63,261 nucleotides of DNA from Pseudobutyrivibrio sp. (GTDB taxonomy: Bacteria; Bacillota; Clostridia; Lachnospirales; Lachnospiraceae): assembly GCA_024684955.1 (NCBI GenBank), contig JAIKWH010000055.1, positions 1-63,261 of the forward strand, written 5' to 3'. The notes under the pieces were generated by a model. That model made no database searches and had not been told where the DNA came from. It saw only the letters and a program-made list of their open reading frames with translations. Shown piece by piece: positions 14,545 through 18,556 of this stretch. The number at the start of each line of letters is the position of its first letter. Within the stretch, counting starts at the first letter, position 1. A program made the translations under genes and the position numbers.

Positions 14545-15789
14545 ATGATGGGACTTATTAATCAGTACAAAGGACTTAGAAAAGAAAATTATATTTTATT
14601 TTTAGGAAGGTTTGTAACCAGTTTGGGGTCAATGATTTGGCCTGTCCTGACCCTTATTTTGAGTCAAAAACTGGCCATGATGGCTACAGACGTATCCCTT
14701 GTAATTATTTTTTCTGGAATTATTATGCTGCCAGCCACTTTTATAGGGGGCAAACTTGCGGATAAGTACAATAAAAAAATGATTATTGTTTACTGTGATA
14801 TTATTTCAATAGTTTTTTATATTATTGCTGCCTTTATTCCCCTTAGCCTATTTAGCATTGGTCTTTTGATGATAGCTGCTTCCTGCCAAAACATGGAGAG
14901 TCCTGCCTATACAGCTTTGATTGCAGACATTACTGCATCCAAAGATAGGGAAAAGGCATATTCTCTGTCATATCTTGGGGCAAATTTAGGCCTAGTTTTA
15001 TCCCCTACAATCGCGGGTTTATTATTTGAAAACCATCTTTGGCTTTCCTTCTTGCTTAGTGGAGCAGGTATTGCCTGTTCAACTGTTCTCATTTTCTTTT
15101 TTGTAAAAGATATAAGTCTTGAGGAGGACGCAGAAATTTTTGAAGATCAACAAGGTGCTCTTTCTAATAAGTCTTTACTTTCAGTTCTTTTAGAAAATAA
15201 GGTGGTGCTTTTTTACATCATTGTTTTGGATTTATATTGGGCGGCATATTCTCAGTATTCTTATTTGCTTCCCCTTGATATAGGAAGAGTACACGGGGAG
15301 GATGGGGCTCTTATTTTTGGTTCGGTTTCATCTATAAATTGTCTTGTGGTTGTAATTTTTACACCTATACTTACAAGGCTCTTGTTTAAACTATCCTACA
15401 CCGTAAAAAATCTTTTGGGCATATGCTTTTCCCTATTAGGTTACATTGTCTTTGTGGCATTCTTAGGACATGTTCCTATTTACTATTTTGCCATGACCCT
15501 ATTTACCTTTGGAGAGATTCTCACAGTTATAGTAGGGGGAGCATATATGTCAGAGAGAATTCCTGCTAGCCACAGAGGAAGGGTAAATGGTTTTTATACT
15601 ATTTTGCAAAATGTATTATATGGTATGTCAATTTATATAAGCGGAAGAATCGTTGATTTAAAAGGTTCATATCAAGCCTGGTATTTTATTTTTGCCCTGC
15701 AAATTATTGCAATTGCAGGTTCCTTTATTCTTATTTTTGTAGATAAGAAGGCATATCCTAAGTTGTATGACTTTTTGCTGACGCAATAA
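14545..15789 (+). CDS. Major facilitator superfamily transporter
   Basis: The 414-residue protein is very hydrophobic, with about twelve predicted membrane segments in two halves. Between segments 2 and 3 is the MFS loop signature (GGKLADKYNKKM). The middle loop after segment 6 is acidic (EEDAEIFEDQQG). The family resembles drug or metabolite exporters of the DHA1 type, but the substrate cannot be read from the sequence. GAGAGGA lies at good distance before the ATG. The last codons (TTG CTG ACG CAA TAA) lie inside a repeat element, so the C-terminus and stop of this gene are repeat-derived. Confidence 0.88.
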   Translation: MMGLINQYKGLRKENYILFLGRFVTSLGSMIWPVLTLILSQKLAMMATDVSLVIIFSGIIMLPATFIGGKLADKYNKKMIIVYCDIISIVFYIIAAFIPLSLFSIGLLMIAASCQNMESPAYTALIADITASKDREKAYSLSYLGANLGLVLSPTIAGLLFENHLWLSFLLSGAGIACSTVLIFFFVKDISLEEDAEIFEDQQGALSNKSLLSVLLENKVVLFYIIVLDLYWAAYSQYSYLLPLDIGRVHGEDGALIFGSVSSINCLVVVIFTPILTRLLFKLSYTVKNLLGICFSLLGYIVFVAFLGHVPIYYFAMTLFTFGEILTVIVGGAYMSERIPASHRGRVNGFYTILQNVLYGMSIYISGRIVDLKGSYQAWYFIFALQIIAIAGSFILIFVDKKAYPKLYDFLLTQ

Positions 15790-15890
15790 GGAAATTGTCA
15801 GCAAAAATCCTGCTTCGCAGGACAACTTTTCCATTGCATGTAAAAGTTGGTCTGGTACGATTCTTGTTTTTCTGATGAAAAACAAGAATC
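15772..15890. repeat. Multi-hairpin intergenic repeat, fullest copy (A)
   Basis: Four consecutive inverted repeats are visible. An 11-bp stem runs TTTTTGCTGAC (15772-15782) to GTCAGCAAAAA (15797-15807). A 6-bp stem is TCCTGC/GCAGGA (15808-15822). An 8-bp stem is CAACTTTT/AAAAGTTG (15823-15849). A perfect 14-bp stem with a 4-base loop spans 15859-15872 and 15877-15890. Related sequence recurs at 15903, 18241 and 18500. The first stem has A and T flanks that could terminate the MFS transcript. The element overlaps the last six codons of the MFS gene. No transposase is near. It looks like a non-coding, palindromic interspersed repeat of unknown family. Confidence 0.85.
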
Positions 15891-15902
15891 TATGACTCCT
15901 TC

Positions 15903-15921
15903 CTGACCCAATAATGAAATT
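15903..15921. repeat. Partial copy of the intergenic repeat (A')
   Basis: Nineteen bases, CTGACCCAATAATGAAATT, are identical to 18247-18265 in copy B and differ slightly from the same part of copy A. It directly follows copy A, so the unit seems to have been partly duplicated in tandem. Confidence 0.75.
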
Positions 15922-15967
15922 TTCTGTAAAATACTAATATTTTTGTCTAAAAGTACCTATATACCCA

Positions 15968-15996
15968 TTGTAAACAGTCAGACTATTAGTTAAAAT
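15968..15996 (+). promoter_or_regulatory. Promoter of the EF-G paralogue gene
   Basis: TTGTAA (15968-15973) and TAAAAT (15991-15996) are 17 bases apart, downstream of the repeat. The predicted start near 16003 gives a leader of about 60 bases that ends in a GGGAGGT ribosome site. Confidence 0.65.
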
Positions 15997-16060
15997 GTAA
16001 GATAACAAGACGTAGCGGGGTTAAGACGTCACAATTTTACAAAAATGGGAGGTACAACAC

Positions 16061-18157
16061 ATGAAGGTATTTACTACTGAGAAAATCAGAAACGTTGTGT
16101 TACTTGGTCACAGCGGGGCGGGCAAAACCAGCCTCATTGAATCAATGGCATTTTTGTCTGGCCAGATTCCAAAAGCAGGAACGGTTGAGGCTGGTAATAC
16201 CATTAGTGACTACGACAAATTAGAGCAGAAAAATAAGTTTTCTATCTACACATCTTTGGTTCCAATTATTTGGGACGATACCAAGATTAACTTCCTAGAT
16301 ACTCCAGGTTATTTTGATTTTATAGGCGAGGTGGAAGAGGCTGTATCGGCAGCTGATTCTGCTATTATTGTAATTTCTGGTAAAAGTGGAATTGAAGTTG
16401 GTACCAAACGGGCTTGGGATTTGTGTGATAAATACAACCTTCCAAGAATGGTTTTTGTTACTGACATGGATATAGATGATGCCAGCTACAGAGAGATTGT
16501 AGAAGAGTTGCAAGCTCTCTATGGCAAAAAGATTGCTCCATTCCATCTTCCAATTAGAGAAAATGGTGAGTTTGTTGGCTATGTAAATGTTATCCAGCAG
16601 ATTGGTAAGAGATGGAAGGCAGATGGAACAGTTGAGCATTGCGATGTTCCTGATTATAACAAGGAATATTTGGATAACTATCGTGAGGCTTTGATGGAAT
16701 CAGTTGCTGAGACATCAGAGGAATTCATGGATAGGTATTTTGGAGGAGAAGAATTCTCAGAGGCTGAAATAAGGCAGGCCCTTAGAGCAAATGTAGGCAC
16801 AGGTGACATTGTACCTGTTATGATGGGCTCTAACCTTTTAAACAGAGGACAGTACACAATGCTCACAGACGTTGTTAAGTATCTGCCTAGCCCAGAGGAC
16901 AAAAAGATTTCTGGTATTAACGCAAATACTAATGAGGTTTATGAGGCTGACTATGATTTCTCTAAACCAAAGTCTGCATATTGCTTTAAGACAATTGTGG
17001 ATCCTTTCGTTGGAAAGTATTCCCTTATCAAAGTAAACTCTGGTGTTTTAAAAACAGATGATTTGCTCTACAACAAGCATAAGGATGCTGAAGAAAAGAT
17101 TGGCAAACTTTATGTCCTTTGTGGTTCAAAAGCAGAGGAAGTATCAGAACTTCACGCTGGAGACATTGGAGCCCTTTCAAAACTTACAAAGGTTTCTACA
17201 ACAGATTCTCTTTCCACAAAGGCTAATCCAATTCTCTATATCAGAACACCGATTTCTGTGCCTTATACATACAAGAGATACAAGGCAAAGAACAAGGGTG
17301 ATGAGGACAAGATTGCCCAGGCGCTGGCAAAACTTTGTGCAGAGGATTTGACAATCAAGGCTGTTAACGATGGAGAAAACAATCAGTCTCTCATCTACGG
17401 CATTGGTGACAGACATATTGATATGTTGGTTCAAAAACTCAATGAAAAATACAAGGTAGACATTGAACTGAGCCAGCCAAAGGTAGCTTTTAAGGAGACA
17501 ATCCTTGGCAAGAGTGATGTGGAGAATAAGTACAAAAAACAGAATGGTGGCCACGGACAGTACGGACATGTAAAGATGACATTTGAGCCATCTGGAGATA
17601 TGGAAAAGCCATATGAATTTACTGAGTCTGTAGTTGGTGGCGCTGTGCCAAAGAATTATTTCCCTGCTGTAGAAAAGGGCATCCAGGAGGCAGTCTTGGC
17701 TGGACCTTTGGCAGCATATCCTGTTGTAGGTGTACATGCCAACCTTTATGATGGCTCATATCATCCTGTCGATTCTTCAGAAATGGCCTTTAAATCTGCT
17801 GCAAGAGCTGCATTTAAAGATGGATTCATGAAGGCTAAGCCAGTACTTTTAGAGCCTATTGAGACCCTAAAAGTTTTGGTGCCTGATGACTATACAGGTG
17901 ATGTAATGGGTGACCTAAACAAGAGACGTGGCCGTGTCCTTGGTATGAACCCTGTTGAGGGTGGTGGAAAGACAGAAATTGTAGCCGAAGTGCCAATGGC
18001 AGAATTATATGGTTACGATACAAATCTTCGTTCTATGACCGGTGGATATGGAATGTTTTCATATGAACTGGCTAGATATGAGCAGGTTCCATCGGATGTC
18101 CAGGCTAAAGAAGTGGAAAGAAGAGCAAGTAAGGTATCCAAGGAAGATGAAGAATAA
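16061..18157 (+). CDS. EF-G-like translational GTPase (EF-G paralogue)
   Basis: The 698-residue protein has the full EF-G domain order. The G domain is followed by domain II, then the domain III to V region with GGHGQYGHVKMTFEP and a C-terminal RSMTGGYGMFSYE stretch. P-loop GHSGAGKT is at 16-23. The G3 motif reads DTPGY (80-84), with Tyr where EF-Tu and EF-G have the catalytic His. The G4 motif reads TDMD (134-137) instead of NKMD. This places it in the EF-G-like side family, not the main fusA (which normally sits with rpsL, rpsG and tuf). It also does not match the length and neighbours expected of TetM. Its role is unknown; GTP affinity may be altered. The gene has its own promoter and terminator and is flanked by repeats. 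Confidence 0.88.
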   Translation: MKVFTTEKIRNVVLLGHSGAGKTSLIESMAFLSGQIPKAGTVEAGNTISDYDKLEQKNKFSIYTSLVPIIWDDTKINFLDTPGYFDFIGEVEEAVSAADSAIIVISGKSGIEVGTKRAWDLCDKYNLPRMVFVTDMDIDDASYREIVEELQALYGKKIAPFHLPIRENGEFVGYVNVIQQIGKRWKADGTVEHCDVPDYNKEYLDNYREALMESVAETSEEFMDRYFGGEEFSEAEIRQALRANVGTGDIVPVMMGSNLLNRGQYTMLTDVVKYLPSPEDKKISGINANTNEVYEADYDFSKPKSAYCFKTIVDPFVGKYSLIKVNSGVLKTDDLLYNKHKDAEEKIGKLYVLCGSKAEEVSELHAGDIGALSKLTKVSTTDSLSTKANPILYIRTPISVPYTYKRYKAKNKGDEDKIAQALAKLCAEDLTIKAVNDGENNQSLIYGIGDRHIDMLVQKLNEKYKVDIELSQPKVAFKETILGKSDVENKYKKQNGGHGQYGHVKMTFEPSGDMEKPYEFTESVVGGAVPKNYFPAVEKGIQEAVLAGPLAAYPVVGVHANLYDGSYHPVDSSEMAFKSAARAAFKDGFMKAKPVLLEPIETLKVLVPDDYTGDVMGDLNKRRGRVLGMNPVEGGGKTEIVAEVPMAELYGYDTNLRSMTGGYGMFSYELARYEQVPSDVQAKEVERRASKVSKEDEE

Positions 18158-18167
18158 TATTTAAAAT

Positions 18168-18213
18168 AAACTGCAAGGATTTTACTATTTTAAAGTCCTT
18201 GCAGTTTTTTATT
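18168..18213 (+). terminator. Intrinsic terminator after the EF-G paralogue
   Basis: AAACTGCAAGGA (18168-18179) pairs perfectly with TCCTTGCAGTTT (18196-18207) around a 16-base AT-rich loop. The T-run follows to 18210. Confidence 0.92.
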
Positions 18214-18240
18214 TGTTCTAAAATTAATCCAAATCAAAGT

Positions 18241-18311
18241 TTTTTGCTGACCCAATAATGAAATTGTCAGCAAAAATCCTGCTTCGCAGTTGGTCAGATT
18301 CGATTCTAGTT
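18241..18311. repeat. Intergenic repeat copy B (internally deleted)
   Basis: It carries the same 11-bp TTTTTGCTGAC/GTCAGCAAAAA stem as copy A (18241-18251 and 18266-18276), then TCCTGCTTCGCAG, and then passes straight into TTGGTC and a CGATTCTAGTTTT end. Compared with copy A it lacks exactly the 26 bases that form the third hairpin. The right-hand 14-bp palindrome is also lost. Confidence 0.82.
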
Positions 18312-18362
18312 TTATTTAAGAATTATTTAATACAAATTTCATCTATTTGGTTTAAAATAGCC

Positions 18363-18391
18363 TTGACTAATTAAAGGAATGTGCATACAAT
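18363..18391 (+). promoter_or_regulatory. Promoter of the DUF3737 gene
   Basis: TTGACT (18363-18368) and TACAAT (18386-18391) have a 17-base spacer. Transcription would start about 160 bases before the coding region. Repeat copy C would then lie in the untranslated leader. Confidence 0.7.
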
Positions 18392-18499
18392 GAATAAAGT
18401 ACAATTTAATTGCATAAAACTATTTTCTAAATTATTTTAATAACAACTAGATATCTACGAAACTGGATTTGCTAGATACTATTTTTGCTTAAAAAAATA

Positions 18500-18536
18500 T
18501 GTAAAAGTTGGTCAGGAGCAATTTTAGTTTCGAGAA
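18500..18536. repeat. Intergenic repeat copy C (right part only)
   Basis: ATGTAAAAGTTGGTC is identical to copy A at 15838-15852. It continues with a diverged AATTTTAGTTT part and an AGAATC end like that of copy A. The sequence ATTTTTGCTT at 18481-18490 may be a remnant of the left end. The ribosome site of the next gene (GGAGG) begins just after it. Confidence 0.65.
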
Positions 18537-18556
18537 TCAGTTTATGGAGGCTATAA

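Follow-up and report, generated by a model that had tools for sequence, protein, structure and literature searches.

A dispersed multi-hairpin repeat of Pseudobutyrivibrio, probably a non-autonomous MITE-like element with a 2-bp target duplication

The repeated segments on both sides of an EF-G paralogue in Pseudobutyrivibrio sp. probably belong to a non-autonomous MITE-like element of ~123 nt, which inserts as GAC...CCT or GAC...TCT into AT-rich, near-palindromic sites with duplication of 2 bp (usually AT), the transposase being provided in trans. Copies are dispersed, lack coding capacity, are present or absent at homologous sites and also insert directly beside each other, and a filled site equals the empty site plus the unit plus 2 bp. 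The fold is maintained by paired changes, and identical cores are shared between species. The 123-nt unit is short, free of ORFs and found in many copies, as expected for a MITE.

The window, i.e. the whole analysed stretch of 63,261 nt, holds four related segments (15772-15890, 15903-15921, 18241-18311 and 18500-18536), which were confirmed by the sequence and by a repeat search. A covariance model of the element (R1) gave four matches in the window at E<=1: the complete copy, a deletion derivative and two minus-strand matches, both overlapping the palindromic complete copy. The two small remnants were detected by the repeat search and not by plus-strand R1. The features are as follows.

14545-15789, plus strand: MFS transporter ORF (ORF list; Pfam MFS_1, 1e-39)
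15766-15893, plus strand: complete element with both flanking AT (R1 match 15766-15892, 151.4 bits; ends from filled/empty junctions and 159 copies); left AT 15767-15768, unit GAC...TCT 15769-15891 (123 nt), right AT 15892-15893
15769-15771, plus strand: GAC, forming the 5' strand of P0, a short closing helix, by pairing with GTC 15850-15852 (copy alignments, predicted fold)
15772-15807, plus strand: hairpin H1, 11 bp, 14-nt loop (aligned copies, covariation, predicted fold)
15808-15822, plus strand: hairpin H2, 6 bp, triloop (aligned copies, covariation, predicted fold)
15823-15849, plus strand: hairpin H3, the most sequence-variable hairpin (aligned copies, covariation)
15850-15852, plus strand: GTC, 3' strand of P0 (aligned copies, predicted fold)
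15859-15890, plus strand: hairpin H4, 14 bp, conserved apex TTTTC-TGAT-GAAAA (aligned copies, covariation)
15892-15924, plus strand: degenerate second copy in head-to-tail order, reduced to the left end and a decayed H1 (sequence; repeat family D1; junction CT-AT-GAC)
16061-18157, plus strand: EF-G paralogue, core gene (Pfam EF-G domains; DNA match in 29/29 genomes)
18235-18326, plus strand: deletion derivative, H1 and H2 near-intact, H3 missing, H4 decayed (R1 47.1 bits, E 8.1e-10)
18499-18540, plus strand: fragment with 3' arm of H3, GGTC linker and decayed H4 (81% match to query positions 67-98, E 0.087; repeat family D2)

The complete copy consists of GAC-H1-H2-H3-GTC, a linker and H4. Its GAC foot is invariant in 14/14 aligned copies and kept in 101 (G), 104 (A) and 100 (C) of 104 rows; the GTC of P0 is not kept in a subfamily reading GGTATTTACG after H3. 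The remnant of the second copy, which contains 15903-15921, shares AT 15892-15893 with the complete copy by a CT-AT-GAC junction like that of other tandem pairs. Segment 18241-18311 falls inside the deletion derivative. The last codons of the MFS transporter and its TAA stop (15787-15789) are located within the element, the stop in the H1 loop. Such an element accounts for recurrent intergenic insertions that give neighbouring genes stop codons and hairpins.

The EF-G paralogue had been taken in the earlier note for an accessory gene that might have arrived together with the repeats. It has DNA matches in all 29 genomes of the genus. R1 matched none of 29 EF-G loci from the other 28 genomes. 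Of these loci, 26 extend 1.5-1.6 kb upstream, the remaining three being truncated, and none extends more than 64 bases downstream; upstream of EF-G no element is seen in the 25 other genomes where this side is covered. Likewise R1 had no match in 80 EF-G loci from named genomes, including 20 of Pseudobutyrivibrio and one of Butyrivibrio fibrisolvens 16/4 (in 19 of these 21, 390 bases or more of downstream sequence are covered), many of these records looking like the same assemblies as the genus genomes and hence not being independent. Since EF-G is found in 29/29 genomes and R1 detects no element in the covered parts of its other loci, we regard it as a core gene that did not arrive with the repeats. 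These appear to lie beside it by accident, and the local cluster fits the habit of the family to land next to its own copies.

A local duplication only, the case left by the earlier note if no further copies turned up, would agree with four segments within 2.8 kb but is refuted by copies throughout genome and genus and has virtually no probability left. In the own genome, 22 R1 matches exceed 100 bits (one without H1), next to shorter ones. Moreover, nine more places match a 154-base query with 90-98% identity over 121-130 bases, again besides shorter and more diverged ones. Across the genus, identified as Pseudobutyrivibrio through the closest named relatives, R1 matches (E<=0.001) occur in 27 of the 29 genomes, own genome included; G015, G016, G012 and G022 have weak matches or none. 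The counts are not exact copy numbers, as the 120-150 candidates scored per genome are part of the total and some weak rows are palindromic copies reflected on the minus strand. An identical 121-nt core is present in 14 copies from nine species, between which the EF-G gene is 83.2-97.2% identical (median 85.0, 36 pairs). Spread between species would ride on horizontal transfer. The genus includes cultured species, with records of P. ruminis and P. xylanivorans.

No match to the element was found in plasmid and phage collections, and none to three exact patterns in viral contigs. Rfam matched no element in the window at gathering scores (one tRNA elsewhere), and no element copy reached the gathering score in a search at E<=1 of three copy-bearing loci and five G205 loci. 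By title and the start of the abstract, no description of the repeat was found in the literature searched. The characterisation as an unnamed, non-coding, palindromic, dispersed MITE- or BOX-like family holds, while its tie to the EF-G gene is not supported. As a well-bounded and recently active family in gut anaerobes, it raises the question whether small elements are recognised by shape rather than by sequence.

Five comparisons of filled and empty sites fit an insertion of the unit into an AT-rich, near-palindromic site, during which 2 bp, in most cases AT, are duplicated. Gap-free junctions were obtained for L367/L051 (filled/empty), L251/L298 and L299, and L079/L328, L332 and L334, gapped alignments for L387/L495 and L393/L146; L418, L362 and the G007 5523 site, also examined among the junction-spanning rows, gave no clean alignment. 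The empty site reads AT in two of the five (L051; C4 paralogues). In the others it reads TT, AC and TT, so that the duplication is there deduced from length. The copy in L251 ends a reading frame that continues in L298.

The ends were compared in 159 distinct copies, a set from which R1 matches below 90 bits and one match without H1 (L082) were dropped. On the left, NAT-GAC is mostly TAT (99), followed by CAT (23), AAT (8) and GAT (6), and on the right T-AT is found in 137 of 159. A at -4/-5 (103 and 104 of 159) is mirrored by T at +4/+5 (102 and 100 of 158). By eye, the terminal repeats are short and imperfect, TATGACTTCTTG and TATAGATTCTTG agreeing at 9/12 positions. Copies frequently abut, and such pairs occur in all three arrangements; a list of abutting ends (61/159) rests on short motifs and includes chance cases. 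Among copies with identical cores, the left and right dinucleotides agree in 51/59, one of these copies having AC/AC. The remaining 8/59 differ between sides, which is more than plain target duplication should leave in fresh copies.

The fold of 15766-15893 is exceptionally stable (z -7.75 as RNA, -8.75 as DNA; 0/200 shuffles equally stable), and that of the damaged copy 18235-18326 is unremarkable (z -1.55). The stems vary in sequence yet stay paired, with double changes at 37/40 pairs among 101 sequences. Paired cells amount to 97.1%, with 0/500 shuffles as high by any measure, though alignment A3 was fitted to the structure of the model and leans towards it, so that the slid controls (30-55% paired) and five G205 rows with differing stems are the better guide. 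The same fold with other sequences exists in a second Lachnospiraceae genus, mostly packed within longer elements with IS-like outer arms. A classical MITE folds into a single hairpin; four separate covarying hairpins are unusual and count against the MITE reading. The multi-hairpin fold itself may be under selection, be it in the single-stranded form that the transposition machinery encounters or in a folded RNA. A hammerhead-like CUGAUGA in H4 was dropped, as it forms part of the apex of this hairpin and is replaced by CUGAGGA in some copies.

By analogy with IS30, the repeat would be moved by a DDE-type transposase that cuts with a 2-bp stagger and that another element provides in trans. 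This enzyme would recognise the short imperfect terminal repeats, AT-GACTTCTTG on the left and AT-AGRTTYTTG, read inwards, on the right. The partner transposase that the earlier note proposed to look for was searched for but not found, and neither was an autonomous relative, in the scanned loci and stretches of G028. End-pair scans of fetched loci of at least 1.8 kb (from L229 on) and further G028 stretches, together a minor part of each genome, returned pairs made by element copies or single chance sequences. One promising pair on G028 contig C3 falls within a transposase ORF that belongs to an unrelated IS with different ends of its own. A repeat search over ~0.75 Mb of G028, a minority of this genome (C1 alone has 3.41 Mb), revealed several multi-copy IS elements, none with element-like ends. 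The IS30-type domain PF13936 is above cut-off in 13/29 genomes, with none in G007, G010, G011, G014 and G025, and the four inspected IS30-family copies were rejected as source for their differing end sequences.

The insertions could also be explained by a recombinase with 2-bp crossover (serine-type or IS110-type) that integrates a circle, so that circle and target each contribute the dinucleotide on one side. The site has a symmetry centred on a dinucleotide, the eight mismatched identical-core copies keep AT on one side, and so do most mismatched pairs overall. However, plain duplication suits the AT/AT majority as well as the one AC/AC and the one GT/GT copy, and later mutation accounts for part of the mismatches; we consider this route unlikely. 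The IS630 family makes a TA duplication, and TA at both ends of most copies would suit a MITE derived from IS630/Tc1-mariner, the origin proposed for RUP. Yet the paralogous empty sites of G000:C4 have the sequence CTAA^ATACCGG, and it is AT instead of TA that is repeated in the filled site. Moreover, 46/159 copies, among them copies identical inside, have a base other than T before the left AT, which makes this origin very improbable. Slightly less credible still is a spread as REP/BIME-type repeats by a Y1 transposase (RAYT, TnpA-REP) acting on single-stranded hairpins. The repeats are intergenic, palindromic, numerous and clustered in both orientations, and some carriers have Y1 genes (G007, G009, G014, G028 and others). 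But PF01797 is found in only 10/29 genomes and is missing in G000, G025, G026, G017, G008, G006 and G011, which have 19-69 R1 matches each; this contradicts the idea for present-day genomes, the most complete of the seven being G008 with 99%. In addition, R1 at E<=0.001 matches nothing in the surroundings of Y1 genes (18 loci), the foot that the copies conserve is GAC and not GTAG, and Y1 chemistry is not expected to give a 2-bp duplication.

Covariation across two genera and the conserved loops might instead reflect a function that the host maintains, as structured RNA or cis-regulator. We hold this to be quite unlikely. The 72 copies with enough flank, evaluated with a simple ORF caller, have no orientation bias: 27 run along both neighbours and 26 against both, while the neighbouring genes diverge around 14 copies and converge on 5. 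That homologous sites either carry or lack a copy also speaks against it, and template-switch repair of palindromes can produce paired changes without selection. A further speculation, doubtful but conceivable, is that the cargo of the element is the fold alone: four covarying hairpins, three of them closed by GAC/GTC, recognised as folded nucleic acid and not by sequence. The recognising enzyme would be a transposase or recombinase acting in trans, perhaps an RNA-guided one that uses the folded transcript as its guide, and would cut with a 2-bp stagger at AT. If true, this would make it a new class of mobile element, and the fold in the second genus would be the same parasite with a changed vehicle.

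The MITE-like element resembles several known systems. With REP/BIME it shares dispersed, mostly intergenic, clustered palindromes; according to PMC8266576, REPs have 20-50 nt, are most often preceded by GTAG and go with a TnpA-REP enzyme, features that the element does not display. It also lacks the TA duplication expected of an IS630 relative. RUP (107 bp) is similar in size, has no own gene and is proposed to move in trans, its ends resembling IS630-Spn1 (PMC3049150). The BOX element of Streptococcus pneumoniae is likewise a short, interspersed, modular composite repeat with stable predicted stem-loops and without own transposase, for which mobilisation in trans is proposed and gene-modifying insertions are described (PMC3049150). 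BOX varies the number of boxB modules and has ends similar to ISSpn2 (PMC3049150), whereas here, in the copies seen, hairpins are lost and not amplified, GAC/GTC closes three hairpins and leaves the fourth outside, and none of the IS elements inspected has similar ends. IS30 carries 26-bp inverted repeats and a transposase, and its ends are joined with 2-bp spacing (PMC9333248), the spacing being a likeness to the element. The four inspected IS30-family copies in the genus have other boundaries and no ends in common with the element, which yet behaves like IS30 (PMC9333248): it duplicates 2 bp, prefers near-palindromic hot spots and inserts beside its own ends.

Four stretches of the element, which is a mobile repeat of ~123 nt, were located in the window:

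15766-15892: complete element copy (R1, 151.4 bits)
15892-15924: start of a decayed second copy (repeat search, BLAST)
18235-18326: damaged copy (R1, 47.1 bits)
18499-18540: element fragment (repeat search, BLAST)

R1, the covariance model of the element, was built from 14 copies, all from the window's own genome. The four multi-hairpin segments which an earlier note had placed around the EF-G paralogue (16061-18157, plus strand) are present in the sequence and in the repeat search. In the window R1 at E<=1 gives only 15766-15892, 18235-18326 and two weak minus-strand matches overlapping the palindromic complete copy. This copy greatly exceeds its shuffled versions in stability (z -7.75 for RNA, -8.75 for DNA; equalled by 0 of 200 shuffles); the damaged copy does not stand out in this way (z -1.55). 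The MFS ORF in the window takes its final codons and its stop from the element. Just after the EF-G gene, at 18165-18210, a 20 nt inverted repeat (90% complementary) is followed by T-rich sequence and probably represents a terminator.

Insertion is seen at five filled copies with homologous empty sites and gap-free junctions (G, genome; C, contig; L, extracted locus). In each comparison the filled site equals the empty site plus the unit plus 2 bp.

Filled copies, their empty counterparts and the reading of the empty site
G011:C79; G023:C58; AT
G028:C1; G004 and G023; TT
G000:C4; paralogous repeat copies in the same genome; AT
G010:C6; G028:C3; AC
G010:C40; G022:C24; TT

The G028:C1 copy (L251:2253-2378, near 1327752) stops an HTH-type ORF whose frame continues in G004 (first-stop translation); in addition, a segment farther along is missing from the G028 gene. 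Three more sites (L418, L362 and G007 5523) gave no clean filled/empty alignment. At the last one several relatives lack the element, and inspection by eye shows a degenerate copy in G025 and a single hairpin in G023. The flanking pairs are AT/AT in 120 of 159 distinct copies, and over all 159 the flanks are mirrored, A standing at 4-5 bases on the left side and T at the same distance on the right. Among 59 copies whose inside is identical to another copy, 51 have the same pair on either side (one AC/AC) and 8 do not; the flanking pairs differ in 28 of the 99 other copies covered on both sides. TA as the duplicated pair is contradicted by the G000:C4 site and the free base on the left. Copies adjoin each other with a 2-bp spacer, either head to tail (G026:C22, G026:C67, G028:C1 3130235/3130360), with left ends facing (G000:C66, G025:C16) or with right ends facing (G028:C1 2559643/2559770, G007:C56, G027:C28). 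The window pair at 15766 and 15892 is of the head-to-tail type. A second, larger dispersed repeat of G000, TTTCCGCGAAACA ... ATACCGGAAT, yields 21 BLAST matches (L264:3250-4000 on C33, also C4, C41, C67, C1, C31, C32, C52); on C4, C31, C33 and C52 it has element copies within it or close by.

A dispersed repeat family, as the earlier note had supposed, is borne out by BLAST of the window's own genome (2.26 Mb, 84 contigs, 86% complete), which finds nine more sites aligned along 121-130 of the 154 query bases with 90-98% identity, besides shorter matches. With R1, 22 matches there exceed 100 bits, one of them (C33) without H1, the first hairpin; further matches are truncated, diverged or reflections. 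At E<=0.001, 27 of the 29 genus genomes, own included, contain 2 to 69 matches each, with a weak best match in G012 and G022 (~E 6e-9) and none in G015 and G016. Judged by EF-G, the closest named relatives are Pseudobutyrivibrio. An identical 121-nt core is shared by fourteen copies, located at different sites in nine species whose EF-G genes are 83.2-97.2% identical (median 85.0, 36 pairs; <=91.8 in 35 pairs, the exception being G006/G011 at 97.2). Hence the spread among species is recent and INTERSPECIES. Neither 72,556 plasmid nor 50,697 phage records gave a match, nor did viral contigs for three exact element patterns. In two species, L040 (G005:C1) and L044 (G019:C21) appear to carry one copy at the same position with one flank alike, which would be an older shared insertion. 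Of 397 family genomes drawn (E<=1e-6, stricter filters) three match, G205 being the only one from another genus, with 20 BLAST matches below E 1e-8. A single further Lachnospiraceae genus thus harbours a distant relative of the family.

From 5' to 3' the element consists of AT, GAC, H1, H2, H3, GTC, a linker, H4, YCT and AT.

Hairpins and linker of the element
H1: 11 bp, loop of 13-14 nt
H2: 6 bp, triloop
H3: about 10 bp, variable
Linker between GTC and H4: 6-7 nt
H4: 13-14 bp, apex TTTTC-TGAK-GAAAA

Over 101 distinct sequences 97.1% of the stem cells are paired and 37 of 40 pairs changed on both sides, figures that lean towards the model since the alignment was made with it. No measure is reached by any of 500 shuffles, and a shift of the partner by 1-3 columns lowers pairing to 30-55%. 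Of the 101 sequences, 38 lack pairing at one H4 position (columns 121/146). The GAC/GTC helix, which is not part of R1, is without covariation support, as it is invariant in the 14-copy alignment and broken in the subfamily with GGTATTTACG after H3. In G205 the H1, H2 and H4 stems, together with part of H3, differ in sequence; hairpin order and GAC/GTC are kept, the apex CTGATGA mostly. These copies are the independent support for the fold. The G205 module mostly sits inside longer elements of roughly 300 nt (e.g. L456) whose long outer arms pair though their sequences differ between copies, several reading GGCTGTAAAAAATC...GATTTTTTACAGCC. The arm type starting GGCTGTAAAAAATC resembles the termini of one IS in G028 (AAGGGGCTGTGAAAAAATGA, L507/L509). 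Template-switch repair of palindromes can also yield paired changes; selection on the fold is therefore probable rather than proven. Subfamilies differ in H3 and parts of H1 and H4 in assorted combinations, and deletion forms join the 5' arm of H1 to H3 and H4 (C55), or retain H1-H2-H4 (C49), H1 by itself plus both outer ends (C62) or H4 alone (C32).

Gene context was assessed for 72 copies with callable neighbours using a simple ORF caller. Overlap with a called ORF does not exceed 60 bp in 71 of them, a test blind to interrupted genes such as that at L251. A converging ORF ends with TAG from the element's right end in nine loci (L137 and L141 being orthologous). Orientation to both neighbouring genes is even (27 along, 26 against, 14 between divergent and 5 between convergent genes), which argues against an orientation-dependent regulatory role. 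The alternative that the EF-G gene arrived with the repeats is contradicted: the gene has a match in 29 of 29 genus genomes, and R1 finds no element at 29 EF-G loci of the other 28 genomes (upstream side covered in 26 of 29 loci, 25 of 28 genomes; downstream <=64 bases). The same holds for 80 EF-G loci from named genomes; 21 belong to Pseudobutyrivibrio or Butyrivibrio fibrisolvens 16/4, with at least 390 bases downstream covered in 19, and many appear to come from assemblies already among the 29 genus genomes. The adjoining MFS and DUF3737 genes of the window are absent within the covered flanks of the 29 plus 22 EF-G loci searched. The EF-G paralogue is thus a bystander to the element.

As candidate mover, a Y1 enzyme (PF01797) occurs in 10 of the 29 genus genomes, some carriers included. 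It is probably not responsible, since PF01797 is missing from seven high-copy genomes and the 18 loci around Y1 genes hold no element copy. An IS30-type HTH scores above cut-off in 13 of the 29 genomes, carriers included, and in none of G007, G010, G011, G014 and G025. Four inspected copies of IS30-family elements were rejected as source because their boundary sequences differ from those of the element. The ends of multi-copy IS elements in the examined part of G028 are likewise unlike. A 1858-bp IS present twice in identical form on G028:C3 (L496:17489-19346 and L498:9717-11574) has a 483-aa transposase ORF, and a short stretch near the end of this ORF resembles H1 by chance.

Taken together, the copies form a new family of multi-hairpin transposable elements in Pseudobutyrivibrio, non-autonomous and active in recent times; no earlier description was found among titles and abstract starts of open-licence papers. 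As the end test failed, membership in the IS30 MITE group is not claimed. In its insertion pattern the element behaves like IS30, with a 2-bp duplication, a near-palindromic target and insertion beside its own ends (PMC9333248). In build it resembles BOX (PMC3049150).
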